Positions 1 to 35,996 of a DNA stretch of 40,897 nucleotides are shown here, piece after piece (the stretch's first letter is position 1; the number at the start of each line of letters is the position of its first letter). Position numbers and translations under genes: made by a program. Source of the stretch: Candidatus Falkowiibacteriota bacterium. Lineage in GTDB: Bacteria; Patescibacteriota; Patescibacteriia; Patescibacteriales; UBA12465. The stretch spans positions 20,055-60,951 of the forward strand of contig JAACPL010000006.1 in the NCBI GenBank assembly GCA_009995495.1, given 5' to 3'. The notes below the pieces were generated by a model. It searched no databases and was not told the origin of the DNA. It saw only the letters and a program-made list of their open reading frames with translations.

Positions 1-3000
1 AAGTGTCAGAACTAGTATTACTACAAGAAGTTCCCATCCCCGCTGGAGGATTAGCGCAATACTGTCCACATTCAGTTAAATTTTTATAAGTACCAATTTT
101 AAGAGGTGAATCAGAGGCGCAAGAATTATTATCAGCGCAATTATAATAAGCACAATAACCAATATCTTCTTGAGCACCGCTAGTAATAGCATCGCCTAAA
201 CCACAAGTATTAGTCTTCGCATCAAAACAACACTTACCACTACTCTCACTACTACAAGCTTCAAAATCGTCGCCAATCGACTCACAAGGATCGAGCTCAA
301 CACAAGACTCCTCACAAGTTGCTAATTTAGAATAAGAACCAATTTTTACTGGATAAGTTGAAGCGCAAATATTTTCATTGTCAGCGCAATTATAGTAAGC
401 ACAATAACCAAAATTAGGATTAGCCGGATCTTCACTAATTGTATCGCCAGCCCCACCGCGACAGACATCATCACTGGAATCAGCTGTTCCCTTTGAATCT
501 AAACAACAAAAAGCGGCGTGTTCTAAACATCCCTCAGGACTTAAACTTGAACAATCAGTACAAAAACCACTAGGAAATTTACTATCATTAGCTTCACAAT
601 ATTGACCAGAGCTACCAGTACAATTACAAGCCAAGTCTCTTTCTAAACTAGTATCTCCCGCGCCAGCACAACCGCCGCAACGACCAAAGCCAGCGCCATC
701 ATCACTTGAATCTGAACCACAAGTTCCACCACATTCAAGTTGAACTAAAGTTCCGTCTTTAGCTTCATAAGCACAACAATCACGAGCACTCTGACCAACA
801 GTACAACAGCAATCACAACTAGCATCATTAGTAGAAGCACATTTATAATCACCGGAACTAGAACCATTAACCGATTCGCAAACAGCTCCACTTGGGCAAA
901 TTTTTGGAGCCACACAACGACTAAGGCCTCCAAGCGCTTCACATTTTAAACCATAATCACAAGTAGAACAATCGGAGTTAAGATCAACGCATTTATCACC
1001 ATCACCTCGAGTAAAGCCTTCGGGACAAGAACTGGTGATAACTATTTCCCAATGATTATTAGAATTACAATAACCATTAGCAAGAACATTTTTACCTTCA
1101 ATTTCAAATTCAAAAGCTTGACCTAAACTACAAGAATTATCACCATTCTCCGAGACCATTAAACAACGATCGCTATTTGCGTCGTAATAACAAGAATTTT
1201 CACCGGGCCTACAACCAGGAACACTGGAACAATCCTGGCTACAGTCTTGAGAGAATATTTTTTGGCCGCCAGGATAAGGCGAACAAGAGCCGGGTTTGTT
1301 AGGACAACCGCCAGTAAAACAAGCCCCATAAATAGCCGCTAAGCCCGCACAACTTTCATTTTCATCAACAACTTCATTATTAAAATTGGTATTAAAATTC
1401 CATTCATAAACTGAACTGGGAACATCAATATAACACTGGTCTAAAGCATTTGAACACTCTCCTTCTTTATAAGTCCCTTTAGGACAACAAACCTGTGAGC
1501 CACAATCACTATCAGAAGAACAACTGCCAACGGAAAAATTTAACTCATTTCCATAAGCGCCTCCTTTTAAAACTCTAACTGGGCCAGTAATAGAATCTTG
1601 AGGAACTTCAGCTAAAACATAGTCTGCTCGACCATCCTTTTCTACTAAAGCACTAAAATTACTATTAGCCCCGTTAAATTTAACTGTGACTTCCGAGTTT
1701 AAAGCCCCAAAGTATTCACCCCATAAGCCAACTTCCGTTCCGGCTGGGCCTCTAATAGGATTCATTTTACAAAGACTTGTTTTTAAATCTAGATTTCTAT
1801 CGAAAGTAAAAGTTGAAGGATTAATACTATTAGTATTAATTGTTTCATCAGCTAAATTAATTGACAAAATATAGTTGCCATCATCTAGCCCGGCCGGAAC
1901 TTTTACTATCACTTGATCATCCTTCCAAACAGAGCCCAAGCATGGTTCAGGAAAAGCATAAACCGCTTCCGTGTTATTAAAATAAACTTTCGCGGTTCCT
2001 TTACTTGCACCAAAACCAGAACCAAAAATTGTAACATATTGACCAACATTGCCATTAAGAGGCCAGAAATAAGAAATAAAAGCGCCTTCATTAGCTTCCT
2101 TTTCCTTGGTAAATAATAGAGAATTACTATTTTCTTCAGCACCATTGCTTTGTGCTCTAACAAAAGTTCCAGATTTTCCGGCTTTGATATTTGGCGTTCT
2201 TGCTGTGCCGCTTAAGCCATTCATTGCTGTAAAATTTGAAGCAAGCCCAGCTACATTCATACTATAATTACCAAAATTAGCGGTGCCATTATAAAGATTA
2301 ATTCCTTGATAAGAAACTTCTGTACTTAAAAGACCCTGACTAGGACTAATTTGACAAAGACCAGGACGGATAATGCTATTAGAGCGAAAATCAGGAATTA
2401 CTGGACCATAAGAATCATTTGTTAAATCAAATAAACCATCACTTTCAACTTTAATTGGTCCTGTCCCCGCTCCGTTTGGGATGGCAATAATAATTTGGTC
2501 ATCCTGCCATGAGTTAACGCAGCTAGGATTAATACCAGCCGGATTAAGAGCCTCTCTTTCATTTCCTGAACCAATAAAAACAACACGACTAGAAGCTTGA
2601 TTATATTCACCAAAATTTTTACCGGAAATTGTTAAAAAATTTCCCGCCGCTCCGTTAGGAGCATTTAAATTGCAGGTTTCCCCACCGCAATCGCTATCAG
2701 TTTTACAGCTTTTATTTTGTTCACTTTGACAAAAACCACCAAGAGGACTAATTTCAGTGATAACTGGTGACCCCATACAAGTACAAGAATTAGGATCACA
2801 AACTAAATAAGAGCCACAAAAATTCTCATTAGGAGCGCAAATTCCATTATTATCAGTATTTAAATTACAAGCGTCTCCCGCCTGACCAGCCGGCTGACAT
2901 AAACAATTATTATCACAATAACTTCCTTCGGCGCAAATAATATCTAAAGGAGAGCAAATACCACCAAAAGGATTGCTATTACAACTAGTTGGCTCAGTGT

Positions 3001-3496
3001 CTCCCGGATAGCAAGCCCCGCCAATACAAGAACCCCAAGCTCCATTTCGAAAAACTGTATAACCATTACAACCACAGGTTTCAATATCGCCTTCATTATA
3101 AGTAATGTCTCCGCCATTATTAACTACCTGGCTAAAACGAGATAAAATAAAAGTTGCTAAAGCCCAAGAAGAAAGAATAATTATTAAACCGATGACACCA
3201 GCAACTAATATTTTCTTAGCAGCAGCAATCTTATCTTCACTTCCACCCGATGTCATCCATTTAAAGCCAGCGTAAATTATAATCAGCAAAGCAACTAATC
3301 CTAGAAAACCTAAAGCAAAGTTGATTATCCTTCCCGCTAGTTCCCGCGGGTCCGCTTGATCCTCGCCTAAAACTCCGCCGAGACCATCGCCAACAGCGTC
3401 AGTGCCAAAGTCCTGAGCTAAAACAACGCTCGAAAATATAAAGCCAAATAATAACAAGAAAATGAATAAGTATTTTTTCCAATTATTTTTAAACAT
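1..3496 (-). CDS. Giant secreted/surface protein, C-terminus beyond window: signal peptide plus VirB2/TrbC-like two-TM N-terminus, IPT/TIG-like domains, long Cys-rich tail
   Basis: Manual translation from ATG at 3496..3494 on the minus strand is open to the window edge (MFKNNWKKYLFIFLLLFGFIFSSVVLAQDFGTDAVGDGLGGVLGEDQADPRELAGRIINFALGFLGLVALLIIIYAGFKWMTSGGSEDKIAAAKKILVAGVIGLIIILSSWALATFILSRFSQVV...). TIG-like stretches include SPVITEISPLGGFC..GNFLTISGKNFGE and YFWPLNGNVGQYVTIFGSGFGASKGTAKVYFNN. No stop codon is in frame, so the ORF track probably skipped it as open-ended. Confidence 0.9.
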   Translation of the reverse strand, partial: MFKNNWKKYLFIFLLLFGFIFSSVVLAQDFGTDAVGDGLGGVLGEDQADPRELAGRIINFALGFLGLVALLIIIYAGFKWMTSGGSEDKIAAAKKILVAGVIGLIIILSSWALATFILSRFSQVVNNGGDITYNEGDIETCGCNGYTVFRNGAWGSCIGGACYPGDTEPTSCNSNPFGGICSPLDIICAEGSYCDNNCLCQPAGQAGDACNLNTDNNGICAPNENFCGSYLVCDPNSCTCMGSPVITEISPLGGFCQSEQNKSCKTDSDCGGETCNLNAPNGAAGNFLTISGKNFGEYNQASSRVVFIGSGNEREALNPAGINPSCVNSWQDDQIIIAIPNGAGTGPIKVESDGLFDLTNDSYGPVIPDFRSNSIIRPGLCQISPSQGLLSTEVSYQGINLYNGTANFGNYSMNVAGLASNFTAMNGLSGTARTPNIKAGKSGTFVRAQSNGAEENSNSLLFTKEKEANEGAFISYFWPLNGNVGQYVTIFGSGFGASKGTAKVYFNNTEAVYAFPEPCLGSVWKDDQVIVKVPAGLDDGNYILSINLADETINTNSINPSTFTFDRNLDLKTSLCKMNPIRGPAGTEVGLWGEYFGALNSEVTVKFNGANSNFSALVEKDGRADYVLAEVPQDSITGPVRVLKGGAYGNELNFSVGSCSSDSDCGSQVCCPKGTYKEGECSNALDQCYIDVPSSVYEWNFNTNFNNEVVDENESCAGLAAIYGACFTGGCPNKPGSCSPYPGGQKIFSQDCSQDCSSVPGCRPGENSCYYDANSDRCLMVSENGDNSCSLGQAFEFEIEGKNVLANGYCNSNNHWEIVITSSCPEGFTRGDGDKCVDLNSDCSTCDYGLKCEALGGLSRCVAPKICPSGAVCESVNGSSSGDYKCASTNDASCDCCCTVGQSARDCCAYEAKDGTLVQLECGGTCGSDSSDDGAGFGRCGGCAGAGDTSLERDLACNCTGSSGQYCEANDSKFPSGFCTDCSSLSPEGCLEHAAFCCLDSKGTADSSDDVCRGGAGDTISEDPANPNFGYCAYYNCADNENICASTYPVKIGSYSKLATCEESCVELDPCESIGDDFEACSSESSGKCCFDAKTNTCGLGDAITSGAQEDIGYCAYYNCADNNSCASDSPLKIGTYKNLTECGQYCANPPAGMGTSCSNTSSDT

Positions 3497-3513: not shown

Positions 3514-6222
3514 TTAAAAGACACAATTACCCTGACTATCAAGCTCGGTCGTTGCTACACCAAAACAACAGGAGGCTTCAGTGGTTGGGCAATCTGGCCC
3601 GACACTAGCCTTATAACAATTTTGATAAATATCTTTAACTCCAGAACCAACCTGAACTAAAAAAGTCATTGATTCAGCAAAAGGCGTATGATTAATAGTC
3701 GTAGTAGTTAAATCTAGTTCCAAGTCTAAAGGCGCAGTATCAACATTTTCTGATTTAATCCAAAAACCAAAAGGACTTGGAGATGAACTCTTTAAATTTA
3801 CTAATTTATGATTAAAAGTATCCTGACCATTAAAAATATTAACACTACCGCTTTTTAAAGTTTGACTTAACATTAATTTATCAAAATTAATATTAATTGG
3901 CTCACTAAAAGAAGTTTGAACTTGTCCTTGAGTTGGACTAATATAAGTTATTTTTGGTGGTGACAAGTTTATTTCATCACTAATAAAAAAGGACCAACTA
4001 TAATCATCACCACGATTTACGTCTTTATTATTTTCATAATAAAATGAGCGAGGGCCAGCCGAGAAACCGTCACGATTAGCATCAAAAGAATTGTTAGCTA
4101 AATCAATAACCCCATTCAAAGAACTTAAATTTGCTAAAGGATAATTCTTTCCATCCAAATTCTGACAAGTATTATAACCTAAGCCACTAGTAGCACAGCT
4201 AGTAAAAGGGCTAATCGCGACACATTCAACTGAGCTAGCGCAACTTTTTAAACCAGCTGCTTTAATTTCAACTTTTAAATTACTATTTACTGGTAAACAA
4301 TAAATTTTTTCCCCACAACCATTAATGCCACATTCTTCATTCGATAAAAATTCGACCGTTCTATAATTACTAGAAATTGAAAAATTACCATTTAAATAAT
4401 TACCACGGCAAATACCGTTATCACATTTGTAAGAGCGACAATCGGAATTATTTTCACAACTTGAATTTGCTGCTAAAGCAGCATCATTATTATTTACTAC
4501 TCTAACAACAGCAGAGACTTCATCAGCTGAGCCGGAAACAGTAATTGGATTAATTGGCTCATTAAAAGAAAATTGAATCCCTGAATTTCTAGCTTTATCT
4601 TTTTTATCTAAAGCCTGGCTTAAATTAGTCCGGTCAAGACCACCAGAAAATGGTTTAATCATTAAAAAGCTAGAGCCAACTGTACTAAGGGCAATATTAT
4701 TACCACCTGAGCCAGCTATTTTAGCAGTTAATCTAATCTTATTAGCCTCAAAATTGGAAGAAACTTCTTGATGGCCACTAATAACCGCTTGAATTAATTC
4801 GGCTTGAAGTGATAAATCTGCGGGTGAATTTGATGAACAATTAGTAACAGTTTTAATGTTATTATTAACCGAATTATCAGAAAAAATATAAACCGAATTA
4901 TTTATTCTCAAAGTATCCGCTGATGTTTCTGGTCTAATAACTATATCCCAAAGATTTCCCGCCTCATAACTAGTAGTTTCAAGCGTTAAATATCCAGGAA
5001 ACACTGCTTTATTTTCAAGATTCCAATCAGCTATACCAAGCAAAGCTCCGTTAGCAGCATTAAATAGTTGAGCTTTAGTGGCTCCGTCAGTCGGAACAGA
5101 AACTTTAAAACTATTAATTGCCCCCTTATAATCAAGGCTAACTGTCGCTGTTTCTGCTCCCTGACTAGGGCTAACTGAAATAACAGTTGCCGGTGAGAAA
5201 ACCAGAGGGCAAGCGACAATATCCATTTCCGCCGTCGCTGCTACAGCCGACGAAACGAGGCCAAGAACATCACGTTGATTATCAGGCGCTGGGAAAACTT
5301 TACCTGATTGAATTATTGGTGGTTCTAAATCCAAAATATCGCTAACAACAAAACTTGTTTCTAAATTTCTAATTGAACAACCCAAGAACATAGAAGTCCC
5401 ACCTTCTTTTCTTAAATCACCACTAATTTTAAAGCCATAGTTAGTATGTCCGCTCGAAGCACCTAAATAATTAAGTGGGGATAAGATTAAAGTCTTCTTA
5501 TCACTAGTGACAGAAGTTATAAGTTCCGTAATATTTGTATTGACTGAAGGACAGCTGCTAGTAGTACAAGCGTCCCCTAAATCACTTTTAAATAAACGGA
5601 AAACAAGAGGATTGATTTTATTGCAAGTTCCTGAATTATCACAAGCACAACTAGCTCCAGAATCATTAACGCAAACGGAATTAAGTTCAAGCTCTTCTTG
5701 AAAAGTTATTAAAATAGAAGTGTTTCTGGGAATATCTTTTTGACCATCTTCTGGATAAATATTTTCAACCGCACAATTACCAATAGCTCCGGCCCCGGGA
5801 TTAGTAAAACCGAGTGAGGGATTAGTAAAGACAGTTCCCCCTCCCCCATCACCAACAACATCGCTAAAACGATTTAAGATAAAAGTTGTCAGCGCCCAAG
5901 ATGATAAGATTATTATCAAACCAATAATACCATTAAACAAAATTTTCTTAGCCCTAGTAATTTTATCTTCACTCCCGCCAGAAGTCATCCAGAGAAAACC
6001 AGCATACATTATTAGAAGAACAACTAAAATACCTAGGAAACCTAAAGCAAATTGAATAAAGCGACCGACGACGATTCTCGGATCTTCGGCCCCGGCCAAA
6101 GAGCCATCTAAGCCAGTTGCAACTTCTTCGACGCCAAAGTCTTGAGCCAAGGTTAAGTTAACCGTTAAAAATAGGCCCAAAAATGCAAAAACAATGAATA
6201 AAATTCTAATTCTTTTTTTCAT
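3514..6222 (-). CDS. Large secreted/surface protein, paralogue of the neighbouring giant ORF: VirB2/TrbC-like N-terminus plus Big_5/SbsA-type Ig-like and Cys-rich regions
   Basis: 902 aa; N-terminus ...LAQDFGVEEVATGLDGSL..GRFIQFALGFLGILVVLLIMYAGFLWMTSGGSEDKITRAKKILFNGIIGLIIILSSWALTTFILNRFSDVV closely matches the other ORF. IYPEDGQKDIPRNTSILITFQEEL is Big_5-like. Confidence 0.88.
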   Translation of the reverse strand: MKKRIRILFIVFAFLGLFLTVNLTLAQDFGVEEVATGLDGSLAGAEDPRIVVGRFIQFALGFLGILVVLLIMYAGFLWMTSGGSEDKITRAKKILFNGIIGLIIILSSWALTTFILNRFSDVVGDGGGGTVFTNPSLGFTNPGAGAIGNCAVENIYPEDGQKDIPRNTSILITFQEELELNSVCVNDSGASCACDNSGTCNKINPLVFRLFKSDLGDACTTSSCPSVNTNITELITSVTSDKKTLILSPLNYLGASSGHTNYGFKISGDLRKEGGTSMFLGCSIRNLETSFVVSDILDLEPPIIQSGKVFPAPDNQRDVLGLVSSAVAATAEMDIVACPLVFSPATVISVSPSQGAETATVSLDYKGAINSFKVSVPTDGATKAQLFNAANGALLGIADWNLENKAVFPGYLTLETTSYEAGNLWDIVIRPETSADTLRINNSVYIFSDNSVNNNIKTVTNCSSNSPADLSLQAELIQAVISGHQEVSSNFEANKIRLTAKIAGSGGNNIALSTVGSSFLMIKPFSGGLDRTNLSQALDKKDKARNSGIQFSFNEPINPITVSGSADEVSAVVRVVNNNDAALAANSSCENNSDCRSYKCDNGICRGNYLNGNFSISSNYRTVEFLSNEECGINGCGEKIYCLPVNSNLKVEIKAAGLKSCASSVECVAISPFTSCATSGLGYNTCQNLDGKNYPLANLSSLNGVIDLANNSFDANRDGFSAGPRSFYYENNKDVNRGDDYSWSFFISDEINLSPPKITYISPTQGQVQTSFSEPININFDKLMLSQTLKSGSVNIFNGQDTFNHKLVNLKSSSPSPFGFWIKSENVDTAPLDLELDLTTTTINHTPFAESMTFLVQVGSGVKDIYQNCYKASVGPDCPTTEASCCFGVATTELDSQGNCVF

Positions 6223-6259
6223 TTAAATCAAATTATAAATTTTCAAATATATTTTTTTA

Positions 6260-6268
6260 TGCTATAAT
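6260..6268 (+). promoter_or_regulatory. Extended -10 (TGCTATAAT) upstream of spoT/relA
   Basis: TG-N-TATAAT, 45 nt upstream of ATG at 6313. Confidence 0.55.
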
Positions 6269-6279
6269 CTAGCTACTAT

Positions 6280-6288
6280 ATTATAACA
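6280..6288 (-). promoter_or_regulatory. Extended -10 (TGTTATAAT on minus strand) upstream of the surface-protein pair
   Basis: Plus-strand attataaca; 58 nt upstream of the minus-strand start at 6222. Confidence 0.5.
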
Positions 6289-6312
6289 CAAGAATAAAAA
6301 AAATAAAAAGTT

Positions 6313-7782
6313 ATGACCATAGAAAGGTTAATAAAAAAATTTGCAGAGAATCATCACGGCGCCGATACTGACATTTTACAAAAAGCTTATGATTTTGCTG
6401 TTGCCGCTCATGAAGGTCAATTAAGAAAAACTGGGGAACCTTATATTAACCATCCGCTTCACACCGCTTATTTATTAACTGAAATTAAGGCTGATCTTTC
6501 TACTGTTGCCGCTGGTTTACTTCATGATGTTCCAGAAGATACAGACCGAACTTTAGAAGAAGTTGAACGAGAGTTTGGACCAGAGATAGGAAACCTTGTT
6601 AAAGGCATCACAAAATTAGGTAAAATTAAATATCGTGGGATTGAAAGATATAGAGAAAATTTAAAAAAAATGTTTCTAGCGATGACTAACGACTTAAGAG
6701 TTATTTTTATTAAGTTTTGCGATAGATTAAATAATTTAAGAACAATAGAAAGTTTACCAGAAGAAAAACAAAAAAGAATTGCTAGAGAAACTTTAGAAAT
6801 TTATGTGCCAATTGCTGGACTATTAGGTATCAGTCGTTTAAAATGGCAAATGGAAGATATTTGTTTCAAAATACTTTATCCTGACGAATTTCACGACCTT
6901 GAATATAAATATGAAGTCGAAAAGAAAGTTGAGCGAAATCAATTTTTTCAAAGAGTTAAAAATGATTTAACACCAAAATTAAAAGAGACTGGAATTGATT
7001 ATGAGATAGAAATGCGTTTTAAACATCTTTATAGTATTTATAAAAAGATGCAAGAAAAAAATCGTAAATTCGATGAAATTTATGATGTGTTTGCCTTAAG
7101 AATAATCGTGCCGACGGTTAATGATTGTTATAAAGTTTTAGGTATAATTCACACGCTCTGGAAACCAAACTCTAGTCGCTTCAAAGACTATATCGCTGTT
7201 CCTAAACCAAATGGCTACAAATCATTACACACAACTATTTACGGCCCCGAAGAAAAAGCGACCGAATTCCAAATTAGAACTAAAGAAATGCACGAAGAAA
7301 ATGTTTATGGTTTAGCAGCTCATTGGTATTATAAACACGATGAAGACAAATTCGGTTATACTTCACCTAAATGGGTTAAAGAAATTATTGAAGTGCAAAA
7401 AGAAGTTTTGGATACTGATGAATTAGTTAAAAAAATAAAACTTGATGTCTTCCAAGATAGAATTTTTGTTTTCTCTCCTAAAGGTGATGTTTTTGAATTA
7501 CCAGAAAAATCAACGCCAATAGATTTTGCTTATGCCGTCCACTCTAATATCGGTAATAAAGCCGCCAGTGTTTTGATTAATAATAAATTAGGGAAACTTG
7601 ATCAAGAGCTGAAAAATGGCGATATGGTAAAAATAATTACTGAAAAAAATCGTGAATACCCAAATCAAGACTGGTTAAAATTTGTCAAAACAAGACGTGC
7701 CAAAGATAGAATAAAACAATATGCGAAAAAATCTTCTTTAACAAGAATTAAACGTTTTATTCCAGGGCTTAAAGGAAAATAA
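6313..7782 (+). CDS. RelA/SpoT family (p)ppGpp synthetase/hydrolase (HD, synthetase and TGS; no C-terminal ACT region)
   Basis: HD motif LLHDVPEDTD; synthetase RFKDYIAVPKPNGYKSLHTTIYGP and EFQIRTKEMHEENVYGLAAHW; TGS DRIFVFSPKGDVFELPEKSTPIDFAYAVHSNIG. Confidence 0.95.
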   Translation: MTIERLIKKFAENHHGADTDILQKAYDFAVAAHEGQLRKTGEPYINHPLHTAYLLTEIKADLSTVAAGLLHDVPEDTDRTLEEVEREFGPEIGNLVKGITKLGKIKYRGIERYRENLKKMFLAMTNDLRVIFIKFCDRLNNLRTIESLPEEKQKRIARETLEIYVPIAGLLGISRLKWQMEDICFKILYPDEFHDLEYKYEVEKKVERNQFFQRVKNDLTPKLKETGIDYEIEMRFKHLYSIYKKMQEKNRKFDEIYDVFALRIIVPTVNDCYKVLGIIHTLWKPNSSRFKDYIAVPKPNGYKSLHTTIYGPEEKATEFQIRTKEMHEENVYGLAAHWYYKHDEDKFGYTSPKWVKEIIEVQKEVLDTDELVKKIKLDVFQDRIFVFSPKGDVFELPEKSTPIDFAYAVHSNIGNKAASVLINNKLGKLDQELKNGDMVKIITEKNREYPNQDWLKFVKTRRAKDRIKQYAKKSSLTRIKRFIPGLKGK

Positions 7783-8890: not shown

Positions 8891-10276
8891 CTAATCCTCC
8901 TTTCTAATTTTAATTTTTTTCTCAACTATTTTATTAATCTTTTCCAATCTTTCTTTGATTTTCTTATAAATCACAGTTTCTTGAGCCCCAGAATCCATAT
9001 CACGCATTAAAACGGTTCCATCCATAATCTCTTTTTTTCCTAAAATAAGACAATTTTTAGCACCAATTGCGGCCGCTTCTTCGAGCTGAGCCTTGAGACT
9101 ATCAGATGATAAAGATTGCTTAACGCAGAAACCACTATGACGTAAATCCTCAAAAAGTTGTAAAGATTTTACCTTTGCTTGATCACCAAGCTGGGCGATA
9201 AATATAATATCATCATTTTTCTTATTAATCAAGGCTGATTTATCTTTAATTCTTGAGGCTGTTCTTTCGACCCCAATCGCCAAACCGACGGCTGGAGTAC
9301 TGACGCCACCAAAACTTTCAATTAAATAATCATAGCGACCACCGGCTGCTAAGGAATTTTTACCAATAATTTGTCCGTCATCTGAAATCGGCCAAAATTC
9401 AAAAACACTATCATTATAATAATTAAGGCCGCGAACCAAATAAGGGCTAAAGTTATAAGGCACTTCAAGTTCATCTAAGAATTCTAAAGTTCTTGTAAAA
9501 CGCTCTCTACTTTCAACTGACAAGAAATCTGCAATTTGTGGGGCCTCTTCTCTTAACTTAAGACAATTTTCATCTTTACAATCTAATAAACTTAAAATAT
9601 TTTTAGACAAATTATTTTTACAATGATTACAAAGTTTAGTTTTTTTACCACGCTCTTTAAAAAAGGCTGAAAGCTTTAAAGAATATTCACGACGACAAGC
9701 AGCGTCGCCAAGACTATTGATTTGAACTTGAACTTTAATATTTAATTCTTTAAATAAAGTAATGGCACTAGCAATTAAAATAGCTTCAGTTAAAGGCTTT
9801 TGGTCACCAATAATTTCAAAATCAGCTTGAATAAATTCTCGGTAATTTCCACCTTGTGGTTTTTCACGACGAAAAACTGGACCAAGGGAAAATAGTCTAG
9901 CCCCAACCGGACTCTCGGGACTAATATTTTCTAGATAAGCTCTAACCATGCCTTGAGTTAATTCTGGTCTCAAAGCTTGCTTTTCGCCTTTATCTCCTTC
10001 AACAAAATAAAATTCTTTATCATTATTTCTTCTACTTGATTTTTTATATAAATCAAAATTTTCTAAAACCGGAACTTTAATTTCCTTAAAACTATAAAGA
10101 TTAGCAAGCTCAACTACCTTATTTGTTATCAAACTAAAAACTTCCCCCTCTAAACCAAAAAAATCCTTAACACCGGCGACTCTAGTTGGAAGTTTAATAG
10201 TTTTTTTTTCAGTTTTTTTAAGTCCAGAACCTTCTTTTTTCTTAACGGGGCTAGTCTTTTTCGCTATTTTTGGCAT
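8891..10276 (-). CDS. hisS: Histidyl-tRNA synthetase
   Basis: GVKDFFG; ALRPELTQGMVRAYLEN; FSLGPVFRREKPQGGNYREFIQADFEIIG; GRYDYLIESFGG. Preferred start MPKIAKK (10276), because the track start at 10492 lies inside lepB. Confidence 0.93.
   Translation of the reverse strand: MPKIAKKTSPVKKKEGSGLKKTEKKTIKLPTRVAGVKDFFGLEGEVFSLITNKVVELANLYSFKEIKVPVLENFDLYKKSSRRNNDKEFYFVEGDKGEKQALRPELTQGMVRAYLENISPESPVGARLFSLGPVFRREKPQGGNYREFIQADFEIIGDQKPLTEAILIASAITLFKELNIKVQVQINSLGDAACRREYSLKLSAFFKERGKKTKLCNHCKNNLSKNILSLLDCKDENCLKLREEAPQIADFLSVESRERFTRTLEFLDELEVPYNFSPYLVRGLNYYNDSVFEFWPISDDGQIIGKNSLAAGGRYDYLIESFGGVSTPAVGLAIGVERTASRIKDKSALINKKNDDIIFIAQLGDQAKVKSLQLFEDLRHSGFCVKQSLSSDSLKAQLEEAAAIGAKNCLILGKKEIMDGTVLMRDMDSGAQETVIYKKIKERLEKINKIVEKKIKIRKED
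8896..8903 (-). promoter_or_regulatory. Strong Shine-Dalgarno (AAAGGAGG) for the bS21 gene, inside the hisS 3' end
   Basis: Minus strand AGAAAGGAGGATTAGCTATG; SD overlaps the hisS codons AGA AAG GAG GAT TAG, 7-nt spacer. Confidence 0.75.
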
Positions 10277-10286
10277 ATTATTTTTA

Positions 10287-10856
10287 TTAGTTTTCGTAAT
10301 TAGGCCAAGTATCCTTTCCGAAGAAAAAAATATTTGACAGTGGCCAGCCTCTAAATAAAACCTTACCAATGATAAAATTTTTATTAACAGGACCAAAACT
10401 TCTTGAATCTCTTGAAGATCCTCGATTATCCCCCATAACAAAATATTCATTTGGTCCGACCGCAATTTTTCCTTCGCCATCATTATAAGCAACTAATTTT
10501 TCATCCAAATAGCTTTCTGATAGAGTTAAGCCATCTGGATAACTTGCATTATAAATAATAATCTTAGCATTTTTAATTTGCAGCTCTTCTCCTGGTAAAG
10601 CAATTACTCTTTTAATAAAATATTCTTGAGGATTTTTTGGATAACGAAAAACTATGACCTGCCCCCTAACTGGCTCATTAAAACGATAAGAAAGCTCATC
10701 AATAATTAAATATTCATTATCATGAAAATTAGGCTCCATTGAGGCTCCTTTAACATAAAAAGGTTGAATTAAATAATAACGAACCGGCACGATAATTGCT
10801 AAAGAAATAACGGCAACTTTGACGATTTCCCAAACAAAAATAAAGAACTTCTTCAT
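10287..10856 (-). CDS. lepB: Signal peptidase I
   Basis: GASMEPNFHDNEYLII; YFIKRVIALPGE; NEYFVMGDNRGSSRDSRSFGPV. Confidence 0.95.
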   Translation of the reverse strand: MKKFFIFVWEIVKVAVISLAIIVPVRYYLIQPFYVKGASMEPNFHDNEYLIIDELSYRFNEPVRGQVIVFRYPKNPQEYFIKRVIALPGEELQIKNAKIIIYNASYPDGLTLSESYLDEKLVAYNDGEGKIAVGPNEYFVMGDNRGSSRDSRSFGPVNKNFIIGKVLFRGWPLSNIFFFGKDTWPNYEN

Positions 10857-32984: not shown

Positions 32985-35900
32985 ATGAGTGATTTGGCTT
33001 CAATCCAGAACTTAATAAACCCAAATAACGACGAAGAAAGCGTTACTGGTCTTTTTGCGAGCAAACAAAAAGAAATTAAGCTTAAAGAAATTGAGAAAAA
33101 AGCCAAACAAAAGGCTGACGATCTTAATCTTAGCTATATAAGTCTTAATAACTTTCCTATTAGTCCCGAAGCTCTATCATTAATTGAAGAAGAAGAAGCT
33201 CGAAAAATAGAAGGGCTCTGTTTCTTTTATGATGGAGACAATATTCGACTTGCCTGCCTGCAACCAAGTGAAAAAATAAGAGAAGTTGTGGCTCGCTTAG
33301 AAAAACAGTATTTTTGCCAATCACGAATTTATATAATTTCCCCAACGAGCTTAAATATTGGTCTTGAAGCCTATAAAACTTTACCAAAAATAAAAAAATA
33401 TAGTAGTGGCGTAGAAATAAGTGAAAAAAATCTAGAAAAATTTAAAGAAACTATTTCTAGTTACAAAAGTTTAAATGAAACAATAAATAATGTTAACATC
33501 AGTGATGTTATTACTTTAATTTTGGCAACAGCCTTAAAGCTTCGGGCCAGTGATGTTCATATTGAAGCCGAAGAAAATACTGTTAATGTTCGTTTGCGTC
33601 TTGATGGCGTTTTACAAGACGCGGCTACAATTAAAAAAGATGAATGGGAAAAAATAATTTCTCGTTTAAAGATTCTTTCGGAGGTTAAAATAAATGTTAA
33701 TGATAAACCCCAAGAAGGAAGATTTTCAATCTATCTTAAAGATAAACATCTCGATGTTCGCGCTTCCTTTTTACCAACCGCTTACGGCGAAAGCGTTGTT
33801 ATGCGTGTTCTCGATTCTGAAGCAACAACCATGGACTTTGAAGCTCTTGGTTTGCGCCCTGAATTGCAACCAATTTTAAAAAGAGAAATAGAAAAACCAA
33901 ATGGTTTGATTTTAACGACCGGACCAACTGGTAGCGGTAAAACCACGACTTTATATACAATTTTAAGTAAATTAAATCAGCCAGGAAAAAAAATTGTCAC
34001 CCTTGAAGATCCAATTGAATATCAACTTAAAGGAATTAATCAAAGTCAAGTTGATGAAAAAAATGGTTATAGTTTTTCTGACGGTTTGCGTTCAATTTTA
34101 CGACAAGACCCAAACATTGTTATGGTTGGCGAAATTCGTGATTTAGAAACCGCTGAAATTGCTATTCGCGCTTCTTTAACTGGTCATCTAGTTTTATCAA
34201 CTCTACATACAAATGATGCTGCCGGTGTAATTCCCCGTTTAACCGATATTGGGGTTAAGCCGTATTTTCTCGTTCCCGCAATTAATATTGTTATCGGACA
34301 ACGTCTAATAAGAAAGCTTTGTCCTAATTGTCGTAAAGAGCATGTGCTCTTAAGCGATGAAAGTGAACAAATAAATAAAATTTTAGCAGTCATCTCACCA
34401 AAATCAAACATTAGCCTTCCCGCCCATCTGCCAACAATTTATAAAGTCGGCGAAGGTTGTGAAGCTTGCGGTTTCATCGGTTATAAAGGACGTACCGGAA
34501 TTTACGAAGTTTTTACAATGAATGAAAAAATAAAACAATTAACAATTGATACTGTCCCAGCTTTTAAAATTCTACAACAAGCGATTGAAGATGGAATGAT
34601 TACCATGCTTCAAGACGGAATGTTAAAAGTTTTAGACGGAATAACTTCCTTAGAAGAAGTTTATCGGGTAACTGGTAATTTTGATTATATTAATGAATTA
34701 TACGATATAGTTATTTCACAGACCATGGGTCGCGGCGTTAAATTAAGTGCCGAAGAAATGTTGATGGCTAAAGAAATGGTCACTGATATTACAAAAATAG
34801 CCGCTATAGCAAAAGACACCCCGAGTGATAAATTAATAAACTTAGTTTTGTCATTAGGTCTCACTTCTTTAGCTGGAGATATACATATCGAGCCCACGGA
34901 AAGTTCAGTGAAAATAAGGTTTAGAATTGACGGAGTCTTACACGACATATTTGATTTACCAAAAACAAGTTATCTCCCTCTTTTAGCAGAGGTTAAAATT
35001 TTAGCTGGAGCTGAAACTAATGTTAAAAAAGCAACTTTTGATGGTCGTTTTAGAATTTATACGCCAGAAGAAAAAATTGATTGTCGTTTATCAATTATCT
35101 CTGGCGGTTTTGGTGAAACTATTGTTATCCGTTTACTTTCAAGTTCTGCCGCTAACCTTGAGACAGCCAAACTTGGTATAACTTCGGTTGCCGCCGAAGC
35201 AATGGAACGAGCTCTGAAAAAAACTAAAGGCATCATTATAACAACTGGTCCAACTGGTAGTGGAAAAACGACAACCTTATATGCGATGCTAAATCGTTTA
35301 AACAAACCTGACGTTAAAATTATTACTGTTGAAGATCCAATCGAATATCAATTGCCAGGCATAATGCAAACGCAAATTGATGAAGCTAAAGGTTATACTT
35401 TTATTTCCGCTATGCGATCACTGCTGCGTCAGAATCCAAACATCATGATGATTGGCGAAATTCGTGATTCGGAAACGGCAAAAATTTCAATTGAAGCCGC
35501 CTTAACCGGCCACCTGGTTCTTTCAACTATTCACGCTAATAGTGCCGCCGGAGCAATTTCTCGTTTCGCTGGTTTAGGGCTAGAAAGACAAGCTCTTGCA
35601 AACTCAATTGAATTCGCTATTGGACAACGTTTAGTCCGTCGGCTTTGTCCCCACTGCAAAAAGAAAAGAGCATCTAATCTAGAAGAAGAAACAAAAATTC
35701 GTGACTTATTTAAAACTATAAAAAACAAAGCAATTAGCTTACCAGAAGAAATGATTTTTTATGAAGCTGTTGGTTGTAATGAATGCGGACAAATTGGTTA
35801 TAAGGGACGACTTGGATTATATGAGGCAATAGAAATGACGGCTAATGTAAAGAAAGTTATACAACAAGTCGGTATTACTGATTTTGAAATAGAGGCGGCG

Positions 35901-35996
35901 GCGATTGAAGACGGAACCGTTCCGATGCTTCAAGACGGAATTCTTAAAGCGCTAAACGGAGAAACAAGTTTAGAGGAAATTTTTAGAGTTGTTTAG
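32985..35996 (+). CDS. Tandem type IV pilus/type II secretion ATPase (two PilB/GspE modules in one chain)
   Basis: Walker A twice (GLILTTGPTGSGKTTTLYTIL, GIIITTGPTGSGKTTTLYAML), Walker B region twice (GEIRDLETAE, GEIRDSETAK), Cys4 motif twice (CPNC..CEAC; CPHC..CNEC); N-terminal MshEN-like region. Confidence 0.95.
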   Translation: MSDLASIQNLINPNNDEESVTGLFASKQKEIKLKEIEKKAKQKADDLNLSYISLNNFPISPEALSLIEEEEARKIEGLCFFYDGDNIRLACLQPSEKIREVVARLEKQYFCQSRIYIISPTSLNIGLEAYKTLPKIKKYSSGVEISEKNLEKFKETISSYKSLNETINNVNISDVITLILATALKLRASDVHIEAEENTVNVRLRLDGVLQDAATIKKDEWEKIISRLKILSEVKINVNDKPQEGRFSIYLKDKHLDVRASFLPTAYGESVVMRVLDSEATTMDFEALGLRPELQPILKREIEKPNGLILTTGPTGSGKTTTLYTILSKLNQPGKKIVTLEDPIEYQLKGINQSQVDEKNGYSFSDGLRSILRQDPNIVMVGEIRDLETAEIAIRASLTGHLVLSTLHTNDAAGVIPRLTDIGVKPYFLVPAINIVIGQRLIRKLCPNCRKEHVLLSDESEQINKILAVISPKSNISLPAHLPTIYKVGEGCEACGFIGYKGRTGIYEVFTMNEKIKQLTIDTVPAFKILQQAIEDGMITMLQDGMLKVLDGITSLEEVYRVTGNFDYINELYDIVISQTMGRGVKLSAEEMLMAKEMVTDITKIAAIAKDTPSDKLINLVLSLGLTSLAGDIHIEPTESSVKIRFRIDGVLHDIFDLPKTSYLPLLAEVKILAGAETNVKKATFDGRFRIYTPEEKIDCRLSIISGGFGETIVIRLLSSSAANLETAKLGITSVAAEAMERALKKTKGIIITTGPTGSGKTTTLYAMLNRLNKPDVKIITVEDPIEYQLPGIMQTQIDEAKGYTFISAMRSLLRQNPNIMMIGEIRDSETAKISIEAALTGHLVLSTIHANSAAGAISRFAGLGLERQALANSIEFAIGQRLVRRLCPHCKKKRASNLEEETKIRDLFKTIKNKAISLPEEMIFYEAVGCNECGQIGYKGRLGLYEAIEMTANVKKVIQQVGITDFEIEAAAIEDGTVPMLQDGILKALNGETSLEEIFRVV

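Follow-up and report, generated by a model that had tools for sequence, protein, structure and literature searches.

The left edge of the stretch analysed here (the window, 40,897 nucleotides, positions 20055-60951 of contig C15 of a 0.94-Mb genome) raises two questions: whether a very long open frame that runs off it is a gene, and what a pilin-like N-terminus would be doing on a giant cysteine-rich protein. The first-pass annotation had described a minus-strand frame of at least 1165 codons without a stop that the ORF track had missed, and so it proved: the frame (gene B) begins with an ATG at window position 3496 on the minus strand and, with no stop in its 1,165 codons, runs off the window, which is why it is missing from the ORF lists. 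The C-terminus that the annotation had sought beyond the edge lies at a stop at C15:17689, which makes B a pilin-headed, Cys-rich surface protein of 1,953 aa counted from the ATG, with residues 1-1165 in the window (1-3496, minus strand). A gap of 15 N lies inside the gene, immediately before window base 1, and in relatives some of the very long frames come from masked N, for example one of 26,099 aa in genome G299; a chance or assembly product is nonetheless extremely improbable. Orthologues from 20 genomes align with B over its full length (25-53% identity), with Cys arranged as in B. The gap agrees with them exactly: they have about five residues there, and the homology is in frame on either side. 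We therefore rejected a chimeric or chance frame. (The 26,099-aa frame, on G299:C8, and another of 14,266 aa, on G101:C1, were left out of the homologues.) Gene B is a real, conserved gene, since the pair that it forms with its neighbor, gene A, is found in almost every sampled genome of the class.

Gene A (window 3514-6222, minus strand), which the first-pass annotation did not mention, is a second pilin-headed gene directly upstream of B on the same strand. It encodes a paralogue of 902 aa with Big_5 domains and 26 Cys, and its T4SS_pilin head maps by Pfam to 5878-6054 (minus strand); A and B have the same head and different exodomains. Six bases after B, gene C (L004:4518-7628) encodes a protein of 1,036 aa with a signal peptide only and with no Pfam family above cut-off. 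The N-terminal region of C is strongly conserved (AIGVRVLPNPNHYS...), and its residues ~200-330 resemble, by eye, the globular part of a type IV pilin. Two neighbors were named by sequence and synteny: a RelA/SpoT-like gene (6313-7782, plus strand), divergent from the cassette and conserved in the family and order, and hisS, encoding His-tRNA synthetase (8891-10492, minus strand), which adjoins the A-B pair across the class. Further along the window, the protein encoded at 32985-35996 (plus strand) combines two ATPase domains of the T2SSE (PilB/GspE) type in a single chain of 1,003 aa. At the contig end (38380-40897, minus strand) lies uvrA, in which GC rises within the gene from ~32-36% to 46-49%, from position ~39000; because of this rise, the 5' part of uvrA may have been acquired horizontally, or the contig end may be chimeric.

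At the N-terminus of B, a signal peptide and two hydrophobic helices had been proposed, and both are present. A Sec-type signal peptide (residues 1-28, window 3413-3496, minus strand; hydrophobic segment 9-27) would be cleaved between SVVLAQ and DFG. It is followed by a T4SS_pilin head (PF18895, residues 52-117, window 3146-3343, minus strand) consisting of two membrane helices joined by a short basic loop that is presumably cytoplasmic, with hydrophobic segments at 57-75 and 96-114 around YAGFKWMTSGGSEDKIAAAKK. A hydrophobicity scan of the whole protein found no further membrane segment, and the head is the sole membrane anchor of B. AlphaFold, run on 16 sequences, gave a confident helical hairpin (helices 50-81 and 87-127, mostly pLDDT >90). 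The proposed VirB2/TrbC-type identity fared unevenly: the head of B matched T4SS_pilin (PF18895) above cut-off (E=4e-9, 36.8 bits; cut-off 26.6), as did that of A (30.1 bits), and relatives' heads lie at or above this cut-off, whereas TrbC/VirB2 itself (PF04956) remained below cut-off on B (20.4 vs 27.9 bits) and exceeded it only in an outside-class relative in L103. The best that NCBIfam offered was a pilin-like conjugal protein of Mycoplasma type, with a score below its cut-off. Foldseek returned no match for the head in the PDB at E≤0.001, as expected for a plain hairpin, and the top match of the head profile among solved structures, VirB2 (8cue), was weak (E=0.24); because of these two results, we take the head's family assignment to stand on sequence and not on fold.

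The heads of A and B share invariant residues, including a loop and helix signature, with small pilins, and they are the best conserved part of both proteins in the family alignment. At 902 and 1,953 aa, A and B are themselves not small single-domain pilins (~100-200 aa), and the sizes of PF18895 frames in the family of the source genome fall into two groups. Our best single reading, to which we give somewhat less than an even chance, is that A and B are modular pilins of the T4SS type. The main rival, a serious one that we hold to be only a little less probable, is that the head is a mere membrane anchor drawn from the pilin family. On that view A and B would take no part in a pilus and would be surface proteins, single or paired, of an adhesin or surface-layer-like kind. 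The head being the only anchor of B fits that alternative, but neither a conserved loop and helix signature nor a head that is better conserved than the rest of the protein is needed for anchoring alone.

Beyond the head, the first-pass annotation had predicted several IPT/TIG-like domains and then a long Cys-rich stretch, and the exodomain of B has both. A first Cys cluster (residues 141-240, window 2777-3076, minus strand; 16 Cys within residues 140-250) precedes an IPT/TIG-type Ig region (residues 250-655, window 1532-2749, minus strand). This region contains a single TIG domain above cut-off in Pfam (residues 473-562, window 1811-2080; 49.1 bits vs a cut-off of 20.9), and at several positions a class-wide profile of the region (A2) finds TIG-type domains of known structure. 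A Cys-rich block follows (residues 656-1165 in the window at 2-1531, minus strand, and on to ~1257), with 77 Cys in the 602 residues from 656 to 1257. Pfam also places a Big_5 domain above cut-off at residues 1259-1305 and an fn3-like stretch below cut-off. The cysteines are constrained: 110 of 121 in B are kept in ≥80% of 21 sequences, and 21 of 26 in A in ≥80% of 16. Their number is even in 14 of 16 A and 17 of 21 B sequences, a hint that they are nearly all paired, and only a hint because the genomes are related. No VKOR, for disulfide formation, was found in the source genome. Neither A nor B has a Pfam match to PrgB/antigen I-II type domains, and B lacks the C-terminal hydrophobic segment of a wall-anchor motif. 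We discarded an AlphaFold model of the exodomain, which was built from three sequences (pLDDT 46).

The class to which the source genome belongs consists of tiny, probably host-dependent bacteria, and the fusion of head and exodomain is widespread in it. PF18895 proteins were present in all 39 family genomes searched; at least 30 of the 39 have a frame of ~600 aa or more among the matches listed, and A-sized (~900 aa) and B-sized (1,500-2,800 aa) frames often stand in tandem. In 19 further genomes of the family, A has ~890 aa and mostly 26 Cys, and B mostly ~1,950 aa and 118-126 Cys; C is also present in many of these, and the cassette is divergent from a relA/spoT-like gene. Across the class, a first profile of the B exodomain (A1) matched 230 of 288 genomes at E≤1e-5, the weak matches among which may be generic TIG, and at E≤1e-15 profile A2 matched 31 of the 34 class genomes sampled but only 4 of 350 genomes beyond the class, and those weakly. 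Among 20 class members from different families, all 20 have giants with a signal peptide and a T4SS-pilin-like head, with A directly upstream of B in most and hisS as the common neighbor. Thus, in the search of Patescibacteria genomes that the first-pass annotation had suggested, homologues retain the fusion. An origin in a mobile element was rejected, as phages and plasmids gave no match. Class genome G285 has a 3,997-aa frame in common with the Magasanikbacteria genome behind L011, and we take Magasanikbacteria to rank within ABY1. This shared frame, together with the T4SS genes that PMC12102498 describes next to recG and radA in ABY1, makes ABY1 the probable identity of the class.

The heads of A and B also track each other within genomes. 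Head identity is 70% between A and B of the same genome, compared to 55% between A heads and 54% between B heads across genomes (68, 55 and 53% with an earlier cut of the head; permutation 0/10,000). For 12 of the 17 genomes from other families, no A-A or B-B pair is as close as the genome's own A-B pair, and in a tree that includes small pilins the mate is the nearest neighbor for 36 of 66 heads. The exodomains, unlike the heads, differ within genomes. A mere anchor would not call for such tracking. It would fit a further explanation, which we regard as unlikely, that A and B assemble with each other into a heteromeric membrane platform that belongs to neither pilus nor T4SS, with C as a secreted partner and the heads matched through A-B pairing: the two genes are adjacent and co-oriented, their exodomains differ while their heads agree, and C, a few bases after B, is conserved in many genomes of the source family. 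However, C did not turn up in most class members from other families, and gene conversion alone may explain the likeness of heads within a genome, since A and B heads share 876 identical codons where 710 are expected overall. Codon sharing is close to expectation in most genomes and clearly above it in a few, such as L042, L045, L067 and L076; because of this excess, we conclude that gene conversion between the heads takes place in at least some cases. Selection may also favor heads that match.

The reading of A and B as modular pilins presupposes a pilus. The source genome has VirB4 on contig C26 (NF045971, 368 bits vs a cut-off of 325), beside PrgI (above cut-off), a TrsD-like protein, recG and radA, and these assignments (VirB4, PrgI, TrsD-like) indicate a monoderm T4SS. 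An 865-aa polytopic protein beside PrgI was called VirB6-like by position and hydrophobicity only; PF19590 gave no VirB6 match in the source genome, and this profile matched nowhere else either. Next to the VirB6-like gene lies that of a secreted protein of 2,820 aa with 90 Cys and without a pilin head (L062:1482-9944), for which a CBM_4_9 match was sub-threshold. A small-pilin array is located on C20 and includes a 254-aa protein with two T4SS_pilin units (L020:1923-2687). According to reviews (PMC12857230, PMC10633639), VirB2-like pilins are unusual for a monoderm T4SS and essential in one Saccharibacterium; PMC12102498 is a further source for the essential pilin arrays there.

The A-B cassette, on C15, lies apart from both virB4 and the array, at hisS throughout the class, as would suit a simple anchor. 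Moreover, 10 of 11 class genomes without a detectable B exodomain keep VirB4, and G169, a single contig that is 96% complete, has B with no VirB4 detected, which a simple anchor would also allow; thus, a coupling of B with VirB4 is not supported. Other pilin-headed proteins bear on both readings. A small-pilin array in G350, a genome outside the class, includes a 1,239-aa protein that has CARDB and in which T4SS_pilin and TrbC both exceed their cut-offs; its place in the array speaks against a mere anchor. In G367, also outside the class, tandem pilin-headed proteins lie beside recG-radA (L105:7921-10029 and 4825-6645), and one of 702 aa carries lytic transglycosylase (SLT) and GDSL domains. 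The source genome itself encodes, on C48, a pilin-headed wall hydrolase of 392 aa with T4SS_pilin and NlpC/P60 (L059:703-1881). Both hydrolase-type fusions would also fit a general anchor.

We prefer modular pilins because PF18895 is above cut-off in both A and B, with invariant residues common to small pilins; because the pair recurs in family and class with heads that are best conserved and tracking; because the source genome has a monoderm T4SS and a small-pilin array; and because, outside the class, the 1,239-aa member sits in such an array and the 702-aa member by recG-radA. The NlpC/P60 fusion and the reported essential arrays of the Saccharibacterium lend further support. On the other side stand the separate cassette, the lack of VirB4 coupling, the sub-threshold TrbC score of B, an uninformative Foldseek search and an unusable exodomain model (pLDDT 46); in addition, if every subunit carried 80-200 kDa of exodomain, packing would be difficult anywhere but at the tip or base.

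If A and B are modular pilins, they would be exported by Sec and lose their signal peptide, leaving the hairpin in the cytoplasmic membrane with both ends predicted outside. Because of this topology, the Ig-like, presumably disulfide-rich exodomain would be displayed at the surface of the monoderm cell. The heads would probably be drawn, like small VirB2-like pilins, into a pilus or its base or tip, making A and B candidates for specialised subunits, or for the tip, of a VirB2-like pilus, and their large exodomains may be contact or adhesion modules; secreted C may associate with them in the way that CofJ does with CofB on a type IVb pilus. That they grip a host is a guess. The wider proposal, a class-wide modular pilin pair at the tip or base of a monoderm T4SS pilus that replaces VirB5 or PrgB for host contact, is one we make quite tentatively.

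The head family, Sec-type signal peptide and hairpin of A and B are those of T4SS_pilin (PF18895) and the VirB2-like pilin arrays of Patescibacteria (PMC12102498). The known members are small and treated as pilus subunits, whereas A and B lie at hisS, away from virB4 and the pilin array, and their exodomains range from several hundred residues to almost 4,000; the passages of PMC12102498 that were searched make no mention of A/B-type proteins. In design, A and B are similar to modular type IV pilins (PilB of Streptococcus sanguinis, CofB and TcpB; PMC8179133), but the carrier differs: type IV pilins have a single helix, a class III leader and a prepilin peptidase, and A and B an unrelated two-helix T4SS pilin, with no Pfam match to a type IV pilin/methylation domain at their N-terminus, where the head is PF18895. 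Their modules are also far larger, the most domain-rich case in PMC8179133 having 860 residues. With the VirB5 tip protein and the PrgB adhesin, A and B would have in common a proposed role in partner-cell contact; we found no sequence relation to either, and A and B would carry their own pilin head. According to PMC12102498, no PrgB occurs in the Patescibacteria set of that study. Surface proteins with IPT/TIG and Big_5 domains share the Ig-like domains of the exodomain, to which A and B add the pilin-type head, large Cys-rich blocks and a class-wide paired order. We found no description of a giant pilin-headed architecture in the open-licence full-text literature, which does not prove its absence elsewhere.

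One consequence of these observations is that T4SS_pilin matches cannot all be counted as small pilins. We know of no adhesin or tip protein for the T4SS of Patescibacteria, and to our knowledge the host contact of most of these bacteria is unexplained. As a near-universal pair in one class, anchored only by a head of the T4SS-pilin family and with a highly constrained exodomain, A and B are concrete proteins to localise. If they are indeed modular pilins, the principle of a pilin with a grafted module would carry over from type IV pili to the pili of T4SS.
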